Assembly: GCA_019242475.1 (NCBI GenBank)
Contig: JAFAVK010000052.1
Span: 55,359 to 119,358, forward strand
From: Acidobacteriota bacterium
GTDB lineage: Bacteria > Acidobacteriota > Blastocatellia > Pyrinomonadales > Pyrinomonadaceae
Direction of reading: 5' to 3'
DNA: 64,000 nucleotides
The number at the start of each line of letters is the position of its first letter. The stretch's first letter is position 1. Shown in pieces: positions 2,727-30,669 of this stretch. The notes beneath the pieces are model-generated. The model saw only the letters and a program-made list of their open reading frames with translations. It ran no database searches and was not told the origin of the DNA. Position numbers and translations under genes: made by a program.

Positions 2727-4283
2727 TTGAGCAAGCAACCCGCGCCACACGACACCATCCTGATACTAGACTTCGGTTCTCAATACACCCAATTGATCGC
2801 CAGGCGGGTGAGGGAATCCAACGTCTATTGCGAGATTTTGCCTTTCGACACGCCGAAAGAGGTAATACTGGCACGGGAGCCGAAGGGGATTATCCTTTCG
2901 GGCGGACCGGCCTCGGTTTATGACGCGGACGCGCCCAAACTCTCCTACGACCTGCACGACCTCTTACGATGTCCGGTTCTGGGTATCTGCTACGGCTTAC
3001 AGGTGATCGCCTCGGAACTGGGTGGGGAGGTGCGCCCCTCTGCGAACAGGGAGTACGGGTACGCACGCCTCCTCGTCGCCGACCAGAACAGCCCTCTTTT
3101 CAAAGGCTTACCGGCCGAGATGGACGTTTGGATGAGCCACGGCGACCACATCATCAGCGTTCCGGAGGGCATTCACGTCACGGCCAGGACGGCCGATGCG
3201 CTTAACGCTTTTGAGGGTTTAAGCGGCCGCATATACGGCGTCCAGTTTCACCCGGAAGTGGCGCATACGCCCTTCGGGAAGGAGATTCTGCAAAACTTTA
3301 TCTATAGAGTTTGTGAGGCGCAGGCGGACTGGTCGCCGCAGTCGATTATCGGCGAGCAGGTCGCCAAAATTCGCAGTCAGGTCGGCGCGGAGAAGGTCAT
3401 CTGCGGGCTCTCGGGCGGGGTGGATTCGACGGTCGCGGCGGCGCTCGTGCACGAGGCGATTGGCGAACAGCAGACCTGCATCTTCGTGGACACGGGGCTT
3501 CTCAAGGAGGGGGAATTCGAAACCACGCGCGCTCTGTTTCGGCAGAAGATGAGTCTCAACGTCGTCGGCGTAAAGGCCGCGGACGAGTTCCTCGGCGCGC
3601 TGAAGGGCGTGGCCGATCCGGAGGAGAAGCGACGGATCATCGGCAGGGTTTTTATAGAGATTTTCGAGAGGGAAGCGAAGAGACTTGGTGGGGTTAAATA
3701 TCTAGTCCAGGGTACTTTATACCCGGACGTGATCGAGTCCGTCTCCGTCCGCGGCCCTTCGGCCGTTATCAAAAGCCACCATAACGTGGGGGGCTTGCCC
3801 GAGCGTATGAACCTGACGCTCATCGAACCGCTCAGAGAACTCTTTAAAGATGAGGTTCGAACGATTGGCAGAGACCTGGGGATACCTGAGGATTTCCTGC
3901 GTAGACATCCTTTCCCCGGCCCCGGTTTCGCCGTCAGGATTCTGGGTGAGGTTACCGAAGAGCATCTGAGATTGCTCCGGGCGGCCGATCTGATAATCGA
4001 GGAGGAGCTGAAACTCGCACAACTGTATGACAGTGTCTGGCAGGCGTTCCCCGTGCTTTTACCGGTTTCGACGGTGGGCGTGATGGGCGATTTCAGGACG
4101 TACGAGCGCGTGCTGGCGATTCGGGCGGTAACGAGCGTCGATGGAATGACGGCCGACTGGGCGCGGCTCCCGCACGATGTCTTAGGGCGCATCTCCACAC
4201 GCCTCATCTCTGAGGTGAGGGGCATCAACCGCGTAGTTTTTGACGTAAGTTCAAAGCCGCCGAGCACGATTGAGTGGGAGTAG
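2727..4283 (+). CDS. guaA: GMP synthase (glutamine-hydrolysing); TTG start preferred over the upstream ORF start at 2610
   Basis: ILILDFGSQYTQLIARRVRE, GICYGLQ, GLSGGVDSTVAAALVHEAIG, C-terminal KPPSTIEWE; GGAGGA just upstream of TTG at 2727. Confidence 0.95.
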   Translation: MSKQPAPHDTILILDFGSQYTQLIARRVRESNVYCEILPFDTPKEVILAREPKGIILSGGPASVYDADAPKLSYDLHDLLRCPVLGICYGLQVIASELGGEVRPSANREYGYARLLVADQNSPLFKGLPAEMDVWMSHGDHIISVPEGIHVTARTADALNAFEGLSGRIYGVQFHPEVAHTPFGKEILQNFIYRVCEAQADWSPQSIIGEQVAKIRSQVGAEKVICGLSGGVDSTVAAALVHEAIGEQQTCIFVDTGLLKEGEFETTRALFRQKMSLNVVGVKAADEFLGALKGVADPEEKRRIIGRVFIEIFEREAKRLGGVKYLVQGTLYPDVIESVSVRGPSAVIKSHHNVGGLPERMNLTLIEPLRELFKDEVRTIGRDLGIPEDFLRRHPFPGPGFAVRILGEVTEEHLRLLRAADLIIEEELKLAQLYDSVWQAFPVLLPVSTVGVMGDFRTYERVLAIRAVTSVDGMTADWARLPHDVLGRISTRLISEVRGINRVVFDVSSKPPSTIEWE

Positions 4284-4287
4284 ACAA

Positions 4288-4358
4288 GGCCGCCTCCGCT
4301 TAACGATTTAAGCCCTTTCTTATTAAGAAAGGGCTTAAATCGTTAAGCGGAGGCGGCC
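4288..4358. repeat. Perfect 34-bp inverted repeat with 3-nt loop between guaA and miaB
   Basis: ggccgcctccgcttaacgatttaagccctttctt / att / exact reverse complement. Confidence 0.95.
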
Positions 4359-4434
4359 GGGAGACAGCTCTTGGCAGAACTTTATCTCCTGACCCGTATC
4401 AATTCTGATAAACTAAGGGCACAGAGGGTTATAA

Positions 4435-5769
4435 ATGAGTAAGTTGAGCGTCCACATTGAGACTTTCGGCTGCCAGATGAATGTGTCCGACTCGGAGCAG
4501 GTAGCCACGAAACTCCGCGAGCACGGGTTTGAGTTAGCTGATGCCGACGCTTCCGCCGATGTCATTCTTCTTAACACCTGTTCGATACGGGAAAAGGCTG
4601 AGCAGAAAGTATTTCGGAGAGTGAATGAGATCAAGCGCGGGCGCGCCGGGCGTCAGCCCTTAGTGGGTGTGTTGGGGTGCGTCGCGCAGCTCGAAGGCGA
4701 ATCTATTTTCAACAGCTCCCCTTCCGTGCAACTGGTGGCAGGCACCGGGGCCGCGGACAGGATTCCGAGTCTTTTAGACCGTGTGAGGGGGGGCGAAAGT
4801 CGTGTCATCGATCTGGGCGGACGTGAGGAGGGGGCGGATTTTGAAATCTCACCTGCCGTCCGCCACTCGAAGCACGTCGCCTTCGTCCCGATTATCGAAG
4901 GGTGTAATAAGTTTTGTACCTATTGTATCGTGCCTTATTCACGCGGTCGCGAACGGAGCCGCACGGCCTTTGAGATCGTCGAAGATGTCGAGAAGCTTAG
5001 GGCCGACGGTTTCAAGGAAGTACAGCTCATAGGGCAGAACGTCAACAGTTATCGTCCAAGGGTTGAGAAAGGACTGGAGGGTTTCTCCGGGGCCACGCCT
5101 TTTTCGAGGCTTCTACGTGCGGTCGCCTCGACCGGCATGACTCGCGTAAAGTTTACGACCTCCTTCCCCAGGGACTTTCACGCGGACATCGTCAAGGCGA
5201 TAGAGGAGTACGAGAACCTTTGTAACTGGGTGCATCTGCCCGTACAGTCAGGTAATAATCGAATTTTGCGTGCGATGCGCAGGGGGCATAAGGTCGAGGA
5301 GTATCTGGAGAGAGTTGCGGCCGTCAAGAACTCGCGCAGAGAAATCTCGCTCACGAGTGACATAATAGTAGGGTTCCCGGGTGAGACGGACGAGGAGTTC
5401 GAGGACACTTTAAGGCTGGCAGAAAAGTGCGAGTTTCATGGCCTGTATATCTTCAAATATTCAGAGAGGCGCGGCACTCCCGCCGCCAGGTTAAAGGACG
5501 ACGTCACAAAGGACGAGAAGACTCGACGCTTTCTCTCCCTCGAAAACTTGCAAATGGCAATACAAAGTAAGGTTTACAAGGATTATGTTGGTAGAATGGT
5601 TGAGGTGCTGGCCGAAGGCTTCAGTGCAAGATCCGACAGCGACCTCAAAGGCCATACGACCTGTAATAAAGTAGTAAATTTCGCCGCCAGTCCTGAGTTC
5701 ATAGGAAAGGTCGTAAGGGTTCGTGTAACGGAGGCGAAGGCGCATAGCCTTTTCGGCCAACTTCTGTAA
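4435..5769 (+). CDS. miaB: tRNA-2-methylthio-N6-dimethylallyladenosine synthase
   Basis: ETFGCQMN, NTCSIREKAE, GCNKFCTYCIVPYSRGRERSR (radical SAM CxxxCxxC), TRAM-like C-terminus. Confidence 0.95.
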   Translation: MSKLSVHIETFGCQMNVSDSEQVATKLREHGFELADADASADVILLNTCSIREKAEQKVFRRVNEIKRGRAGRQPLVGVLGCVAQLEGESIFNSSPSVQLVAGTGAADRIPSLLDRVRGGESRVIDLGGREEGADFEISPAVRHSKHVAFVPIIEGCNKFCTYCIVPYSRGRERSRTAFEIVEDVEKLRADGFKEVQLIGQNVNSYRPRVEKGLEGFSGATPFSRLLRAVASTGMTRVKFTTSFPRDFHADIVKAIEEYENLCNWVHLPVQSGNNRILRAMRRGHKVEEYLERVAAVKNSRREISLTSDIIVGFPGETDEEFEDTLRLAEKCEFHGLYIFKYSERRGTPAARLKDDVTKDEKTRRFLSLENLQMAIQSKVYKDYVGRMVEVLAEGFSARSDSDLKGHTTCNKVVNFAASPEFIGKVVRVRVTEAKAHSLFGQLL

Positions 5770-24449: not shown

Positions 24450-25751
24450 TTAGGCTGGACGCTGCGGGGTCTGCGCCGGCTTGTTCTCGCGCAGGAGTTC
24501 GAGCGCCTTCTTCAACTGCACGTCTTCGGGCTGCTGCTTGGGCGAGGCGGCGTCGGGCGAAACCTCCCTGCGGTCTGCGGGGGCGTTGGTGTTCGGCTGC
24601 GCGATGGCGTCGTCGTCGTTGCCGGTCAGGTCTTCGGGGTCAATCGCATCGGCCAGCTCGGGCGCCTTGACCTCGACCGTCGGCTTCACGCCCTCGCCGA
24701 GGAAAGCCTTGCCCGTCGAAGAGGCCCACTTGACCGTCGTCAGGAGCAGCCCGTCGCCCGCGCGCAGCGTGAACAACTGCTGCTCGGCGCCCGCGCCGAA
24801 GCTCTTGACGCCGACCACGTCGCCGCGCTTGTGATCGACGAAGGCTGAGGCCACGACCTCCGCCGCGGCGGCAGTCCCGCGGTCGATCAGCACCGCGGTC
24901 GGCCCTTCGAAGAGGACGGCCTTCGGGTCGGCCGTGAAAGTCTTCTGGGGCTTGTTCCCGCGCCCGACCGTCTGCGCCAGAGTCCCCTCCTTGATGAAGA
25001 GGTTCGCGACCTTCACGCCCTCTTCGAGCGAGCCGCCGGCGACGCTCCGCAAGTCGAGCACGATCTTCTGCGCGCCCTGCTTCTGTAAAAGCTCCTGCAA
25101 ACGCGCCTTCACGTCCGCGGCCTCGCCGTCCGCGAGACTGTTGACCTTGACGACGCCGACCTTTCCGGCCTCCATCCGCGCCTCCGCGGCGGGGACGGAG
25201 ACGGAGCCGCGCTTGACGTTCAGGACGAACGGGCGCGTGCCCGCCCGCAGGACGCGCAGCTTGACCTCGCTCCCGGGCGCGCCGTTCAGAAGCTGGCGCG
25301 CGTCGTAGAGCGAGATGTCGCGCGTCGCCTTCCCGTCGATGTACTCGATGATGTCGCCCGCCTGCAAGCCCGCCTGTTCGGCCGGCCCGCCCTTCACGGG
25401 GGCGATGACGTAGAGGTAGGAGGCGAACTGCGAAAGCTCCGCGCCGATGCCGGACTGCCCCTTCTGGTTGGCGGGGCTGAAGTTCTTGACCTGCTCGGTC
25501 GTCAGGTAGGTCGAGTACGGGTCGAGGCCGTAGGCCAGACCCCGCAGGGCGCCCGCCCGAACCTTGTTCAGATCGGGCTCGTCCACGTAGTCGTCCTGTA
25601 TGTGCCGCAGGACGCTCTCGAAGATTCGGAGCTGCGCGCCCGGGTCGTTCTGCTGCTGCTGCGCGTTGATCGACATCCAGCCGCCGACGACGGCGTAGAG
25701 CGCCAGCGAAGCGGAGAAGACGACGAGAAGGAACTTACTGCGAAAAGACAT
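24450..25751 (-). CDS. S41 (C-terminal processing peptidase) homologue with PDZ, predicted catalytically inactive
   Basis: PDZ (GIGAELSQFASYLYVIAPVKGGPAEQAGLQAGDIIEYIDGK); S41 core VLIDRGTAAAAEVVASAFVDHKRGDVVGVKSFGAGAEQ lacks Ser and Lys. Confidence 0.85.
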   Translation of the reverse strand: MSFRSKFLLVVFSASLALYAVVGGWMSINAQQQQNDPGAQLRIFESVLRHIQDDYVDEPDLNKVRAGALRGLAYGLDPYSTYLTTEQVKNFSPANQKGQSGIGAELSQFASYLYVIAPVKGGPAEQAGLQAGDIIEYIDGKATRDISLYDARQLLNGAPGSEVKLRVLRAGTRPFVLNVKRGSVSVPAAEARMEAGKVGVVKVNSLADGEAADVKARLQELLQKQGAQKIVLDLRSVAGGSLEEGVKVANLFIKEGTLAQTVGRGNKPQKTFTADPKAVLFEGPTAVLIDRGTAAAAEVVASAFVDHKRGDVVGVKSFGAGAEQQLFTLRAGDGLLLTTVKWASSTGKAFLGEGVKPTVEVKAPELADAIDPEDLTGNDDDAIAQPNTNAPADRREVSPDAASPKQQPEDVQLKKALELLRENKPAQTPQRPA

Positions 25752-25892: not shown

Positions 25893-26390
25893 TTGCGTTA
25901 TACTCCGCGCCGGCCGAAGGCGCAGATTTCATCCAAAAAAGCGAGTCGGGAAGGTCTACAGTTGCAGGGCCGTGTCCTCGCCATCGACATGGGTTCGAAG
26001 AGAGTCGGCCTAGCCGTCTCGGACGAATTGCGCCTGACCGTCCGGGCACTCGCGCCCCTGCCACGCACCCCCTGGAAGCGTCTGCTCAGCTCACTCGCCG
26101 AACTTTGCGAGCAGTTTGACGTGCGGAGCATAGTCCTGGGTTTGCCGCTCCGCCTCGACGGCGACGAAGGCGATGCCGCGCAGGAGGTCAGGCGCCTCGG
26201 GCGCAACCTGCAACTCTCGCTCAAGCTCCCGATCTTTTTTCAGGACGAGCGCCTCACCTCCAGAGAGGCCGAAAGCTCCCTGCGCGAGCGCGGCCTTCGG
26301 GCCTCCGAAATCTCAGACCGGGTTGACAGCGAAGCCGCATCTATAATCTTGAGTGACTTTCTTGAAGCTCAGAACCGGGCCGAAAGTTAA
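25893..26390 (+). CDS. ruvX: Putative pre-16S rRNA nuclease / YqgF-type Holliday junction resolvase (true start likely internal, near LQGRVLAIDMG)
   Basis: RVLAIDMGSKRVGLAVSDELRLTV, IVLGLPLRLDG, FFQDERLTSREAE. Confidence 0.85.
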   Translation: MRYTPRRPKAQISSKKASREGLQLQGRVLAIDMGSKRVGLAVSDELRLTVRALAPLPRTPWKRLLSSLAELCEQFDVRSIVLGLPLRLDGDEGDAAQEVRRLGRNLQLSLKLPIFFQDERLTSREAESSLRERGLRASEISDRVDSEAASIILSDFLEAQNRAES

Positions 26391-26433: not shown

Positions 26434-27549
26434 ATGACTTTTAAAAGAGTTATCCTTTCATTCTTCATCATTCTCATCATCGCCTGCGCGGGCTCTCTCC
26501 TGTGGATTCGCAACGAGCTACAGACGCCCAGGCCCCACTCCCAGAGCGAGAAGTACGTCGCCATCCCCAAAGGCTCCACCCCGGATGAGATTATTAATAA
26601 CCTGGAAAGTCTCGGCGTTATCAGACACGGATGGCTTTTGCGGCTCTACGTGCGTGCGAACGGTTCGGGTCAACGCCTGAAGGCGGGCGAATACCGCTTC
26701 CCCTCGCCCATCTCCCCCCTGTCTGTTCTCAGAAAACTCGAAGAGGGCGAGCAGCGTCTGGGCCGCCTGACCGTCATCGAGGGCTGGACGCGCTGGGACA
26801 TCGCCGCACTCCTCGCGAGGATTCCGGAATTAAAACTCCAGAGCCCGGAAGAGGCTCTGGCACTCTTCGACGACACAAGCTCCATCCGCGACATCGACCC
26901 CGAGGCCAAAAATCTCGAAGGCTACCTCTACCCGGACACGTACAGTTTTCAGCCGGACGCGACGCCGCGGCAGGTCGTCGAAACGATGGTGAAGCGCTTC
27001 CGGCAGGTCTGGGGCGAGTTGTCGGCGAAGCACGCCCCGCCGCCCGGCCTGAGCCCGCGCGAGTTGGTCACCGTCGCCTCGCTCGTCGAGACCGAGTCGA
27101 AGCTTTCGGACGAGCGCCCGGTCGTCGCCTCCGTCATCTACAACCGGCTCAGGCGGGACATCCCGCTCGGCATCGACTCGACCGTCATCTACGCCTCGAA
27201 GGCCGCCGGCAAGTGGAGGAACAACGGCAAGGTCTACCAGAGCGACCTCGACCGCGATTCGCCCTACAACACGCGCAAAGTGCGTGGGCTGCCGCCCGGC
27301 CCCATCGCCTCACCGGGTCAAAGCTCTCTCGAAGCGGCGCTCGGCCCGGCGCAGACCGACTTCATCTACTACGTCCGCGAGCCCTCGCGTAACGACGGCG
27401 CGCACAACTTCTACGACAACGAGGCGGACTTCCAGCGCGGCGTGCAGGCCCTGCGCGAGTGGGAGCGCAACCGCAACGCGAACGTTTCCGCGACGCCCAC
27501 GCCCTCGGAAGGGACTGACGTGACAACTCAGCCGTCCCCCTCCCCTTAA
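26434..27549 (+). CDS. mltG: Endolytic transglycosylase MltG
   Basis: VASLVETESKLSDERPVVASVIYNRLRRDIPLGIDSTVIYA, SPYNTRKVRGLPPGPIASPG. Confidence 0.93.
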   Translation: MTFKRVILSFFIILIIACAGSLLWIRNELQTPRPHSQSEKYVAIPKGSTPDEIINNLESLGVIRHGWLLRLYVRANGSGQRLKAGEYRFPSPISPLSVLRKLEEGEQRLGRLTVIEGWTRWDIAALLARIPELKLQSPEEALALFDDTSSIRDIDPEAKNLEGYLYPDTYSFQPDATPRQVVETMVKRFRQVWGELSAKHAPPPGLSPRELVTVASLVETESKLSDERPVVASVIYNRLRRDIPLGIDSTVIYASKAAGKWRNNGKVYQSDLDRDSPYNTRKVRGLPPGPIASPGQSSLEAALGPAQTDFIYYVREPSRNDGAHNFYDNEADFQRGVQALREWERNRNANVSATPTPSEGTDVTTQPSPSP

Positions 27550-27667: not shown

Positions 27668-28309
27668 ATGAAAAAGCTTTTCGCAATCGGGCTTCTCTTT
27701 TTCGCTTGCACCGTCTGCGCCGCACAGGAGAAGGGCGTCGATCAGCAGAACGACCGCATCCGCGACAGCAGCACCAATCAGCAGCCGGCCGTCAACGGCC
27801 GCAAGGTGGACAACGGCGTCGGCCGCGGCATCGACTTCGGCAAAGGCAAGACGCAGCAGCCGCCCCCCGTCCCAAACCCTTACCGCTTCCAGGCCCCAAA
27901 CGACGTGCTGACGAAGGCGGCACTGGAGTTGATGCGCGAGAGGAAGCTCATCCTCGACGAGACGGTCTCGAAGCCGGAGACCGGACTGCTCGTCTCACAG
28001 CCTTACACCTTCACCCGCGGCACCGTCGTCACCTCCTCGGAGCTTTTCCGCCTCGCGGAGGTGCCGCGCACGGAGCAGGGCAACTGGACGCGGGGCCGCT
28101 ACACGCTCGTCATCGAAATCCAGCCCATCGACAGCTCTAACACGAACGTCTCGGTCAACGCGCGCGTCGAGGGCCGGAGCGACAACGTGCTCGGCGCCGA
28201 GTGGCTCTCGCTCAAGAGCAACGGGACGGCCGAAGAGGAGTTTCTCGTGGCGCTCATCACGAAGGTCACGGGCACCCCGCCGCCGGGCCACGAACAGGAT
28301 CAGCAGTAG
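27668..28309 (+). CDS. Secreted hypothetical protein
   Basis: MKKLFAIGLLFFACTVCAAQEKG signal peptide. Confidence 0.6.
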   Translation: MKKLFAIGLLFFACTVCAAQEKGVDQQNDRIRDSSTNQQPAVNGRKVDNGVGRGIDFGKGKTQQPPPVPNPYRFQAPNDVLTKAALELMRERKLILDETVSKPETGLLVSQPYTFTRGTVVTSSELFRLAEVPRTEQGNWTRGRYTLVIEIQPIDSSNTNVSVNARVEGRSDNVLGAEWLSLKSNGTAEEEFLVALITKVTGTPPPGHEQDQQ

Positions 28310-28415
28310 CGGCCGCCGGCCGCGGCGAACGGGCGTTGTGCCCGACAGCTTAAATCTTTAAGTTTGAACGTTGAAGGGGCGGGAAGCTCAACCATCAGTC
28401 GAACAAAGCAGTAAG

Positions 28416-28988
28416 ATGATCCATCTCAGACACCTCCTCGCGGCCGGCCTCAAGCCTGCCCTCACGCTGGCACTCCTCCCCTTTCTGATTCTGTCGGGCT
28501 GTCAGAAGGCCCCGGACGCTCCGCGGCAGAAGGCGGCACAGGCGACGCCGACTCCGAAGCCGGAGCCCCAGGCTCACGTCTTCGTGGACGAGGCTCTGCT
28601 GGCCAAGCCCTACGCAATCATCGGCGGCGCGGTGCAGAACGTCGGCAAAGAGAGGCTCGAAAAGCTCTCGGTACAGGTCGAGCTGAGGCGCAGGGCGGAC
28701 TCCGGCGTCGAGACGCGCGAGATCAAGGTCGAGCCGGCCGACCTCGAGCCGGGGCAGCAGGGCAAGTTCACGCTCAAAGTTCTGTCGGAGGAGTGGAGCG
28801 GGTCGCGCGTGGTCGGGCTCAAGAGCGGCGCGCGCGCCGGGGAGGTCGCCTTCAGGTCACTGCCCGGAGCGAAACGGCCGCCCGAGAAGATTAAGGATAA
28901 CGTCATCATCGTCAAGACTCCGTCCAAGAAGAAGTCTGGCGGGGACGACTTCATCAACACGCCCGACACGCCCTACAGCGTTCCTTAA
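28416..28988 (+). CDS. Hypothetical lipoprotein (ORF open from 28371)
   Basis: ALTLALLPFLILSGCQKAPDA lipobox. Confidence 0.6.
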   Translation: MIHLRHLLAAGLKPALTLALLPFLILSGCQKAPDAPRQKAAQATPTPKPEPQAHVFVDEALLAKPYAIIGGAVQNVGKERLEKLSVQVELRRRADSGVETREIKVEPADLEPGQQGKFTLKVLSEEWSGSRVVGLKSGARAGEVAFRSLPGAKRPPEKIKDNVIIVKTPSKKKSGGDDFINTPDTPYSVP

Positions 28989-29185: not shown

Positions 29186-29716
29186 ATGCTAAGAACCGTA
29201 GCCCTCGCAGCCGTCCTTTTGGCGCTCAACCCGTTCGGCGCACGTGCGCAGACGACCGGGGCGGAACAGCCCGGCGCGAAGCCCGACGGGCAACGCTCGA
29301 CCGACTTCGGCTCGCCCGAGGCGGAGATGCTGCACCGCGCGGAGATTCGGCGTGAGGAGGAGACGCACAAGGAGATGGTCGAGCGCGCCGACGAAGCCGC
29401 GCAGCTCGGGGACGAGCTGCTCTCCTCCTACAGGAAGAACAACTCCCTCACGCGCGAAGACCAGAAGCGGCTCGAACGGCTCGAAAAACTCGCGCGTAAA
29501 ATCAGGGGCGGCGCGGGCGGCTCCGACGACGAAGAGGAGCTGAGCGACCCGCCGGAGAAGATCGACGGCGCCGTCACGCGCCTCGCCAAAGTCGCGGGCG
29601 ACCTGAAGGAGAGCGTTTCGAAGACTTCGCGCCTGGTCATCTCGGGCAACGTCATCCGGCGCTCCAACGAAATGATCGAGCTGATTCGCCGCATCCGCAC
29701 CATCAAACAGCCATGA
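29186..29716 (+). CDS. Secreted hypothetical protein
   Basis: N-terminal signal MLRTVALAAVLLALNPFGARAQ; ATGA overlap with next CDS. Confidence 0.6.
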   Translation: MLRTVALAAVLLALNPFGARAQTTGAEQPGAKPDGQRSTDFGSPEAEMLHRAEIRREEETHKEMVERADEAAQLGDELLSSYRKNNSLTREDQKRLERLEKLARKIRGGAGGSDDEEELSDPPEKIDGAVTRLAKVAGDLKESVSKTSRLVISGNVIRRSNEMIELIRRIRTIKQP

Positions 29717-30669
29717 CGATTTCGCCGCCCGACGGGCCCCGCCCTTCCCTCCTCCGCACTCAGACGAGAACCCTTGTAGTCATCCTGTCCCTGCTGGCCC
29801 TGGCCGCCCCCGTCGCCCTCGTGCGCGCGCAGAAGGGTGATGACGACGACGAGGTCGTCCGCGTGAACTCAGACCTCGTCGTCCTCAACGTGACCGTGAC
29901 GGACGCGGGCGGCGAGTACGTCCACAAGCTCTCGAACAAAGATTTCAAGGTTCTCGAGGACGGCGTCGAGCAGCGCGTCACGCTCTTCTCCGTCGAGGAG
30001 ACGCCCTTCGCCGCGGCCATCCTGCTCGACACTTCGGGGAGCATGGAGAGCCGCCTGACGCTGGCGCGCGCCGCGGCCGTGCGCTTCCTCGAAGGGCTGC
30101 GCGAGGAGGACGTGGCCTCCGTCTACCACTTCGACTCGAAGGTCGAGCAGTTGTCGGACTTCGCGCCGGGGCGCGACCTGCCGCCCGTCGCCTACGACCT
30201 GAGCTCGAAAGGGATGACGGCGCTCAACGACGCGGTCGTGCGCGCGGCAAAAGACCTCGCCCGGCGCCCGGAGAAGCGCCGCGCGATCATCATCCTCTCG
30301 GACGGCGCCGACACGAAGAGCAGCGCCACGTCCGAGAAGGCGCTCAACGCCGCGCTCGGGGCGAACGCGACCATCTACACCGTTGACATGTCAGACCCGG
30401 AGATGAATCCGGCCGAGCGCATGTCGGCGGCGGGCACGCTGAAGAATTACGCGAGCAAGAGCGGCGGGCGGTTCGTCTCGAAGCCGGGCGGGCGGGCGCT
30501 CGACGACGCTTTCCGGGAGATTCTACAGGAGTTGAGCAACCAGTACACCATCGGCTACCGCCCGAACAACACCGCGCGGGACGGCCGCTGGCGCACCATA
30601 CAGTTGAAGCTCTCGCGGCCCGAGCTGAGCGCGCGCACGCGCAACGGCTACCGCGCGCCAAAGAGTTAG
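29713..30669 (+). CDS. VWA domain secreted protein (VWFA-related Acidobacterial domain type)
   Basis: LVVLNVTVTDAGGEYVHKLSNKDFKVLEDGVEQ...AAILLDTSGSMESRL (MIDAS DxSGS). Confidence 0.85.
   Translation: MTISPPDGPRPSLLRTQTRTLVVILSLLALAAPVALVRAQKGDDDDEVVRVNSDLVVLNVTVTDAGGEYVHKLSNKDFKVLEDGVEQRVTLFSVEETPFAAAILLDTSGSMESRLTLARAAAVRFLEGLREEDVASVYHFDSKVEQLSDFAPGRDLPPVAYDLSSKGMTALNDAVVRAAKDLARRPEKRRAIIILSDGADTKSSATSEKALNAALGANATIYTVDMSDPEMNPAERMSAAGTLKNYASKSGGRFVSKPGGRALDDAFREILQELSNQYTIGYRPNNTARDGRWRTIQLKLSRPELSARTRNGYRAPKS

Follow-up and report, generated by a model that had tools for sequence, protein, structure and literature searches.

A clade of CtpA-type S41 proteins lacking catalytic residues in the Acidobacteriota

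Considering that C-terminal processing peptidases (CTPs) set the levels of cell-wall hydrolases in those bacteria in which they have been studied, the locus described here raises the question as to what function may be served by a CTP homologue from which the catalytic residues have been lost. The corresponding gene occupies positions 24450 to 25751 of the window (i.e. the whole 64,000-nucleotide stretch of DNA, from an acidobacterial genome, that was analyzed), and specifies a CtpA-type S41 protein of 433 amino acids without a catalytic dyad. The original prediction had delimited this interval exactly, omitting that the frame lies on the minus strand, and its description of the product as a homologue devoid of both catalytic residues was borne out by alignment with active paralogues.

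Domains and catalytic columns of the window protein

The Pfam profile Peptidase_S41 (PF03572) matches residues 197-361 of the window protein with 121 bits (cut-off 24), and this S41 core domain (24669..25163; minus strand, as for all features of this gene) was also recovered in an AlphaFold model and by Foldseek. The core is preceded by a PDZ domain encompassing approximately residues 98-172 (25236..25460; PF17820, 53.8 bits over residues 115-169), with a GIGA loop at residues 101-104. Residues 1-34 (25650..25751) represent a putative N-terminal signal sequence or membrane anchor, followed at residues 37-84 (25500..25643) by two helices that coincide, at moderate to low model confidence, with the location of the N-terminal dimerisation region (NDR) in CtpA/CtpB. 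Towards the other end, the helix DVQLKKALELLRE (residues 410-422; 24486..24524) matches the C-terminal dimerisation helix of CtpA, while the protein terminates in QRPA (24453..24464). Against the NCBIfam model TIGR00225 (‘C-terminal processing peptidase’) the protein scores 238.9 bits, which is above the cut-off of 218.6, so that automatic annotation would name it a peptidase.

The position of the nucleophilic Ser is occupied by Ala295 (codon GCC, 24867..24869) and that of the general-base Lys by Ala320 (codon GCG, 24792..24794), as determined by alignment with active paralogues, and the 25 residues that separate them equal the distance between Ser430 and Lys455 of Tsp. The equivalents of CtpA S302 and K327, both of which characterize an active S41A enzyme, are therefore absent, and in Pseudomonas aeruginosa CtpA either S302A or K327A alone abolishes activity, in vivo (PMC11021448). 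The third S41A residue, Gln324 (24780..24782; equivalent to CtpA Q331 and CtpB Q338), is retained, and Asp306 is present at the spacing of Tsp Asp441. Two further elements of the active site are altered: Tyr79 (25515..25517) replaces a His of active CTPs, being His-84 of P. aeruginosa CtpA as assigned by counting along the alignment with that protein, for which a role as triad acid has been proposed (PMC11021448), and Val237-Ala238 (25038..25043) replace the Asn-Pro of the NPGG loop. Among the 11 S41 matches in the window genome (6.1 Mb, 145 contigs) are two CTPs, L001 and L002, that carry Ser and Lys; active-type paralogues, the presence of which the original prediction had proposed to check, thus exist beside the dead protein. 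Judged from its sequence, the window protein is a member of the CtpA family that falls outside the active S41A peptidases.

Distribution, conservation and phylogeny of the dead proteins

A search of 60 genomes of the window’s family and class, its own genome included, returned an S41 match in each of these, and in 59 of them the best match was closely related to the window protein. None of the class orthologues possesses both Ser and Lys; nearly all have Gly at the nucleophile column, the exceptions being Ala (in the window genus only), Asn (once, L091) and Ser (once, L077, with Ala at the Lys column). A phylum-wide search and subsequent fetching then yielded 157 distinct dead homologues from 51 coded Acidobacteriota families, in which the nucleophile column contains Gly 137 times, followed by Ala (5, almost confined to the window genus), Ser (4), Asn (4), Gln (3), Arg (2), Lys (1) and His (1), while the Lys column contains Ala (73), Arg (16), Leu (12), Met (10), Glu (9) and 12 other residues (17 in all). 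Ala/Ala, the conservation of which in orthologues had been suggested as a check, proved to be a local variant of a site that is Gly/variable elsewhere in the phylum, and Ala/Ala as the common state of the clade could be ruled out with Gly as the usual residue of the nucleophile column.

The remaining catalytic-site elements follow a similar course. The S41A Gln is kept in 138 of the 157 dead homologues. The intervening Asp, which had been proposed to be kept, is present in the window protein, but is not a conserved feature of the clade (D in 67, E in 65, others in the rest). The His-84 column contains His in 81 of 87 active sequences, and Tyr, Asp, Glu or other residues in the dead clade; the Asn-Pro of NPGG, found in 58 of the 87 active sequences, is missing from 156 of the 157 dead proteins. 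Ser and Lys are jointly missing in nearly all of the 157, and 150 of the 157 lack Ser, Lys and the His. The dead state of the clade is therefore well supported, and the proposal of a pseudopeptidase with a retained PDZ domain is strongly supported, the loss reaching far beyond what was originally proposed in being phylum-wide and in affecting four catalytic-site elements.

Other parts of the protein have been retained. Within the N-terminal signal/anchor region Ser13 is kept in 94% and Gly23 in approximately 95% of the clade, and Gly103, Q324 and the D.QL..A..L pattern of the C-terminal helix are likewise preserved. The first Gly of the carboxylate-binding loop is kept in just 69 of the 157 dead homologues, the second Gly alone being strongly kept, for which reason ligand binding by the PDZ domain may have changed in the clade. 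The dead acidobacterial proteins are mostly 385-465 amino acids in length, as compared to 500-650 for most active acidobacterial CTPs.

Comparison of the window gene with six near orthologues gave dN/dS values of 0.14-0.25 (NG86). Such strong purifying selection, in combination with the absence of any class orthologue with both Ser and Lys, places the Ala/Ala state beyond chance, and a catalytic loss that is conserved in orthologues under purifying selection is what characterizes a selected pseudoprotease. A phylogenetic tree of 83 sequences, including 30 active CTPs, was obtained following removal of the two dyad columns and exclusion of L081, a Parabacteroides row with AA in the alignment that was spurious and sat on a very long branch. 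In this tree the short, dead proteins are separated from the longer active CTPs by a branch with a support of 100/99. The only clade members seen with an intact dyad belong to family f30 (L197 and L238, from two genomes), which possess Ser, Lys and Gln, lack the His and the NPGG Pro, end in KKAA, and are placed inside the short clade adjoining L200, in which just the Lys is kept. The f30 dyad may have been retained or regained, as both fit the tree, and the loss may accordingly have happened once or more than once. Within the window lineage no intact orthologues, which the original prediction had associated with local decay, were encountered.

Outside the Acidobacteriota, two phyla were sampled, and all 42 best matches retrieved from them keep Ser and Lys (30 loci belong to the phylum of G245, labelled Deltaproteobacteria, and 12 to that of G246, Parabacteroides); no dead form occurs among these 42 loci. 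The sequences compared thus indicate an ancient clade which is spread over most of the sampled Acidobacteriota families, rather than local decay. As a separate observation, the pseudo-CTP match of locus L257 (approximately 4064-5308; genome G154, family f15) falls in two same-strand pieces, 154066-154752 and 154882-155307, which are nevertheless spanned by one open frame of 415 residues.

Fold, C-terminal tail and gene neighbourhood

The AlphaFold model of the window protein, based on a 32-row alignment, is of moderate confidence (pLDDT 73, pTM 0.69), being confident in the PDZ domain, the core and the C-terminal helix (411-422), whereas the N-terminal segment and the linker to the tail are poorly modelled. 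The best PDB matches retrieved with this model by Foldseek are Helicobacter pylori and P. aeruginosa CtpA, the D1 protease and CtpB (E-values to 1.8e-34, target TM up to 0.86), and each of the best 50 PDB matches listed is an S41 CTP; the predicted structure, which had been suggested as a check, accordingly matches the CtpA/CtpB fold. By both sequence and fold the P. aeruginosa and H. pylori CtpA proteins are the best PDB matches, with approximately 28-32% identity in structural alignments and the same order of NDR, PDZ, S41 core and C-terminal helix, yet the window protein has lost Ser and Lys as well as the equivalent of His-84 and the NP in NPGG, and the dead clade differs in possessing a conserved -(K/R)AA tail. 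The top matches also include laboratory dead mutants that resemble the window protein, namely a CtpA chain with SAAAAE and H. pylori S300A/K325A/Q329A. CtpA is assembled by its N- and C-terminal helices, the C-terminal one holding the hexamer together (PMC8764530), and since the DVQLKKALELLRE helix corresponds to the latter, oligomerisation is likely; it probably proceeds via the N- and C-terminal helices.

The PDZ loop GIGA is identical to the carboxylate-binding loop of Bacillus subtilis CtpB, the PDZ domain of which binds Val-Pro-Ala and Ala-Tyr-Ala tails (PMC3808539), to be compared with the RPA end of the window protein. CtpB itself, unlike the window protein, is active, employs a different C-terminal dimerisation and functions in sporulation. 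The RPA end is the window version of a tail that is widespread in the clade: 88 of the 157 dead proteins end in Ala-Ala, against approximately 2-3 expected from the frequency of Ala, with Lys or Arg preceding it in 71 of the 88. This ending is the majority state in 29 of the 51 coded families; among the 87 active sequences, 6 possess it. Binomial p-values for the tail disregard the relatedness of the sequences and were given no weight. Every one of the 16 Ala-Ala codon pairs is in use among the dead-clade tails, which argues that the tail is selected as protein and rules out an artefact at the DNA level.

Similar tails were observed in a small number of active proteins. L216 and L220 (families f10 and f36) are active long CTPs which end in -KAA/-QAA, and dead homologues that have diverged greatly, with R/W and R/F as their dyad residues, occur in the same genomes. 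L282 and L293, active CtpA proteins of another phylum, end in KKAA, and the tail may thus predate the loss of activity.

Divergently oriented with respect to the pseudo-CTP gene is ruvX (YqgF; 25893..26390, plus strand), downstream of which lies mltG (YceG; 26434..27549, plus strand), specifying an endolytic transglycosylase, both genes being identified by Pfam. This divergent arrangement of the pseudo-CTP gene and ruvX-mltG extends over at least 17 coded families, inside as well as outside the window class, and MltG is encoded upstream of the pseudo-CTP in 53 of 106 loci with sufficient flanking sequence, the pairing being absent from many families, the f15 group included. No ruvX-mltG pairing was found at active-CTP loci, most of which had short flanks only. 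A scan of the divergent intergenic region for sigma-70 promoters gave no match. The C-termini of MltG proteins adjoining a pseudo-CTP gene did not exhibit a common tail, and the notion that MltG bears a shared CTP-type tail was dropped for this reason.

In Escherichia coli, Prc has MltG among its substrates, independently of NlpI, an accessory factor being suspected for its Prc-mediated turnover, and inactive K455A-Prc still binds MltG (PMC7481392). Prc/Tsp resembles the window protein in its PDZ domain and Ser/Lys-type fold, and its targets among the cell-wall enzymes include MltG (PMC7481392), but at approximately 680 amino acids it contains extra helical domains and is active, whereas the window protein is of the CtpA type and dead. 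The pairing with mltG constitutes the strongest lead to the function of the pseudo-CTP.

Beyond mltG, the plus strand encodes three proteins without a Pfam match (27668-28309, 28371-28988 and 29186-29716), and neighbour clusters that apparently hold the first and third of these recur at 36 and 25 loci, respectively. They are followed by a secreted-looking von Willebrand A domain protein (29713-30669, plus strand), relatives of which are apparently also encoded close to the locus in related genomes (31 loci).

Candidate functions of the pseudo-CTP

The best explanation, to which we assign about as much chance of being right as of being wrong, is that the dead CtpA-type CTP acts as a natural non-cleaving trap or reader for peptide tails, with MltG-type clients or an active CTP as its partners. 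It builds on the observed catalytic loss, conservation and selection, clade structure, fold similarity, tail conservation and gene pairing. The pseudo-CTP would reside in the periplasm, either exported or anchored there, and its PDZ domain would probably still bind unstructured peptide tails without cleaving them, most likely in the manner of the laboratory K455A-Prc trap mutant. Cell-wall enzymes might thereby be sequestered or presented, so as to tune the degree to which they are destroyed by a separate active CTP, and MltG is the first client candidate because the genes are paired. The protein’s own -(K/R)AA tail (RPA in the window) is a candidate PDZ ligand, and could mediate docking either on the active CTP or on another copy of the protein itself. 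The steps that we infer are the binding of peptides, oligomerisation, the client role of MltG and tail docking, and the full combination, in which a phylum-wide non-cleaving CTP controls MltG turnover with its tail docked on the PDZ domain of an active CTP or on its own, is unlikely to be correct in every part. If true, such a tail-docking pseudo-CTP would amount to a built-in ‘trap-mutant’ level of cell-wall control, undescribed in other bacteria. Points against the trap or reader explanation are that many families lack the mltG pairing, that the first Gly of the PDZ loop is poorly kept in the clade, that the structural model is of moderate confidence, and that the adjoining MltG proteins share no C-terminal tail.

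The protein has probably been maintained for holding or regulating cell-wall proteins, not for cutting them. The envelope scaffold or adaptor role advanced in the original prediction is plausible in the light of the signal sequence or anchor, the oligomerisation helix and the pairing with mltG. The adaptors NlpI and LbcA offer a possible functional analogy as non-catalytic CTP partners that act on cell-wall hydrolases, but are TPR lipoproteins without an S41 fold. While the S41 fold and a dead vertebrate protein with such a fold are known, no description of a bacterial pseudo-CTP was found in the open-access literature (most subscription papers being outside the scope of the search). The occurrence of a dead CTP that passes TIGR00225 across a major soil phylum implies that the peptidase annotation would be wrong in a large set of genomes; a natural non-cleaving CTP also represents a means to ask how CTPs choose their substrates, and its conserved tail and pairing with mltG are direct and inexpensive points at which function can be tested.

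A doubtful alternative, yet the one that survives best, holds that the dead protein is a regulatory subunit which forms hetero-oligomers with the longer Ser/Lys CTP encoded elsewhere, and exerts allosteric inhibition or activation upon it. Many of the genomes with a member of the dead clade also yielded an active long CTP, and in several genomes of families f9, f12, f56 and f32 an active CTP alone was recovered, from which the dependence looks one-sided. The oligomerisation helices are kept in the dead clade, the -(K/R)AA tail could serve as a ligand of the active PDZ domain, and a precedent exists in the LbcA complex, where one CtpA subunit per dimer is active and the other inactive (PMC11021448). 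Against this, the two clades are distant (the 100/99 split), their C-terminal regions differ and the genes are unlinked.

A little less probable again is a new function on the S41 fold, such as that of a ligand carrier or a structural part of the envelope, without any tie to CTP proteolysis. The occurrence of 17 different residues at the Lys column and eight at the nucleophile column suggests a site that is free to drift, and vertebrate IRBP/RBP3 is an S41-fold protein that has lost its catalytic residues (PMC11750400); however, IRBP/RBP3 is a retinoid carrier of tandem modules with no envelope role, and does not represent a phylum-wide bacterial clade. That the PDZ domain is conserved, together with Gln324 and the C-terminal oligomerisation helix, speaks against this reading and for retained peptide handling.

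It is highly improbable that the clade still consists of proteases, whether by means of other residues or through its f30 members. L197 and L238 indeed keep Ser, Lys and Gln (and L200 the Lys), but they are without the His and the NPGG Pro, and outside f30 no new invariant nucleophile/base pair is present, the clade-invariant polar residues D77, D133, D233, R235 and E298 being read as shared S41/PDZ framework positions. An alternative catalytic dyad was rejected, the clade containing no substitute Ser/Lys or other invariant catalytic pair. Local decay or sequencing error, for which the draft status of the 145-contig source genome might be invoked, can practically be dismissed, given that the same state is present in three congeners, the dead site extends across the phylum, the frames are intact and dN/dS is well below 1.
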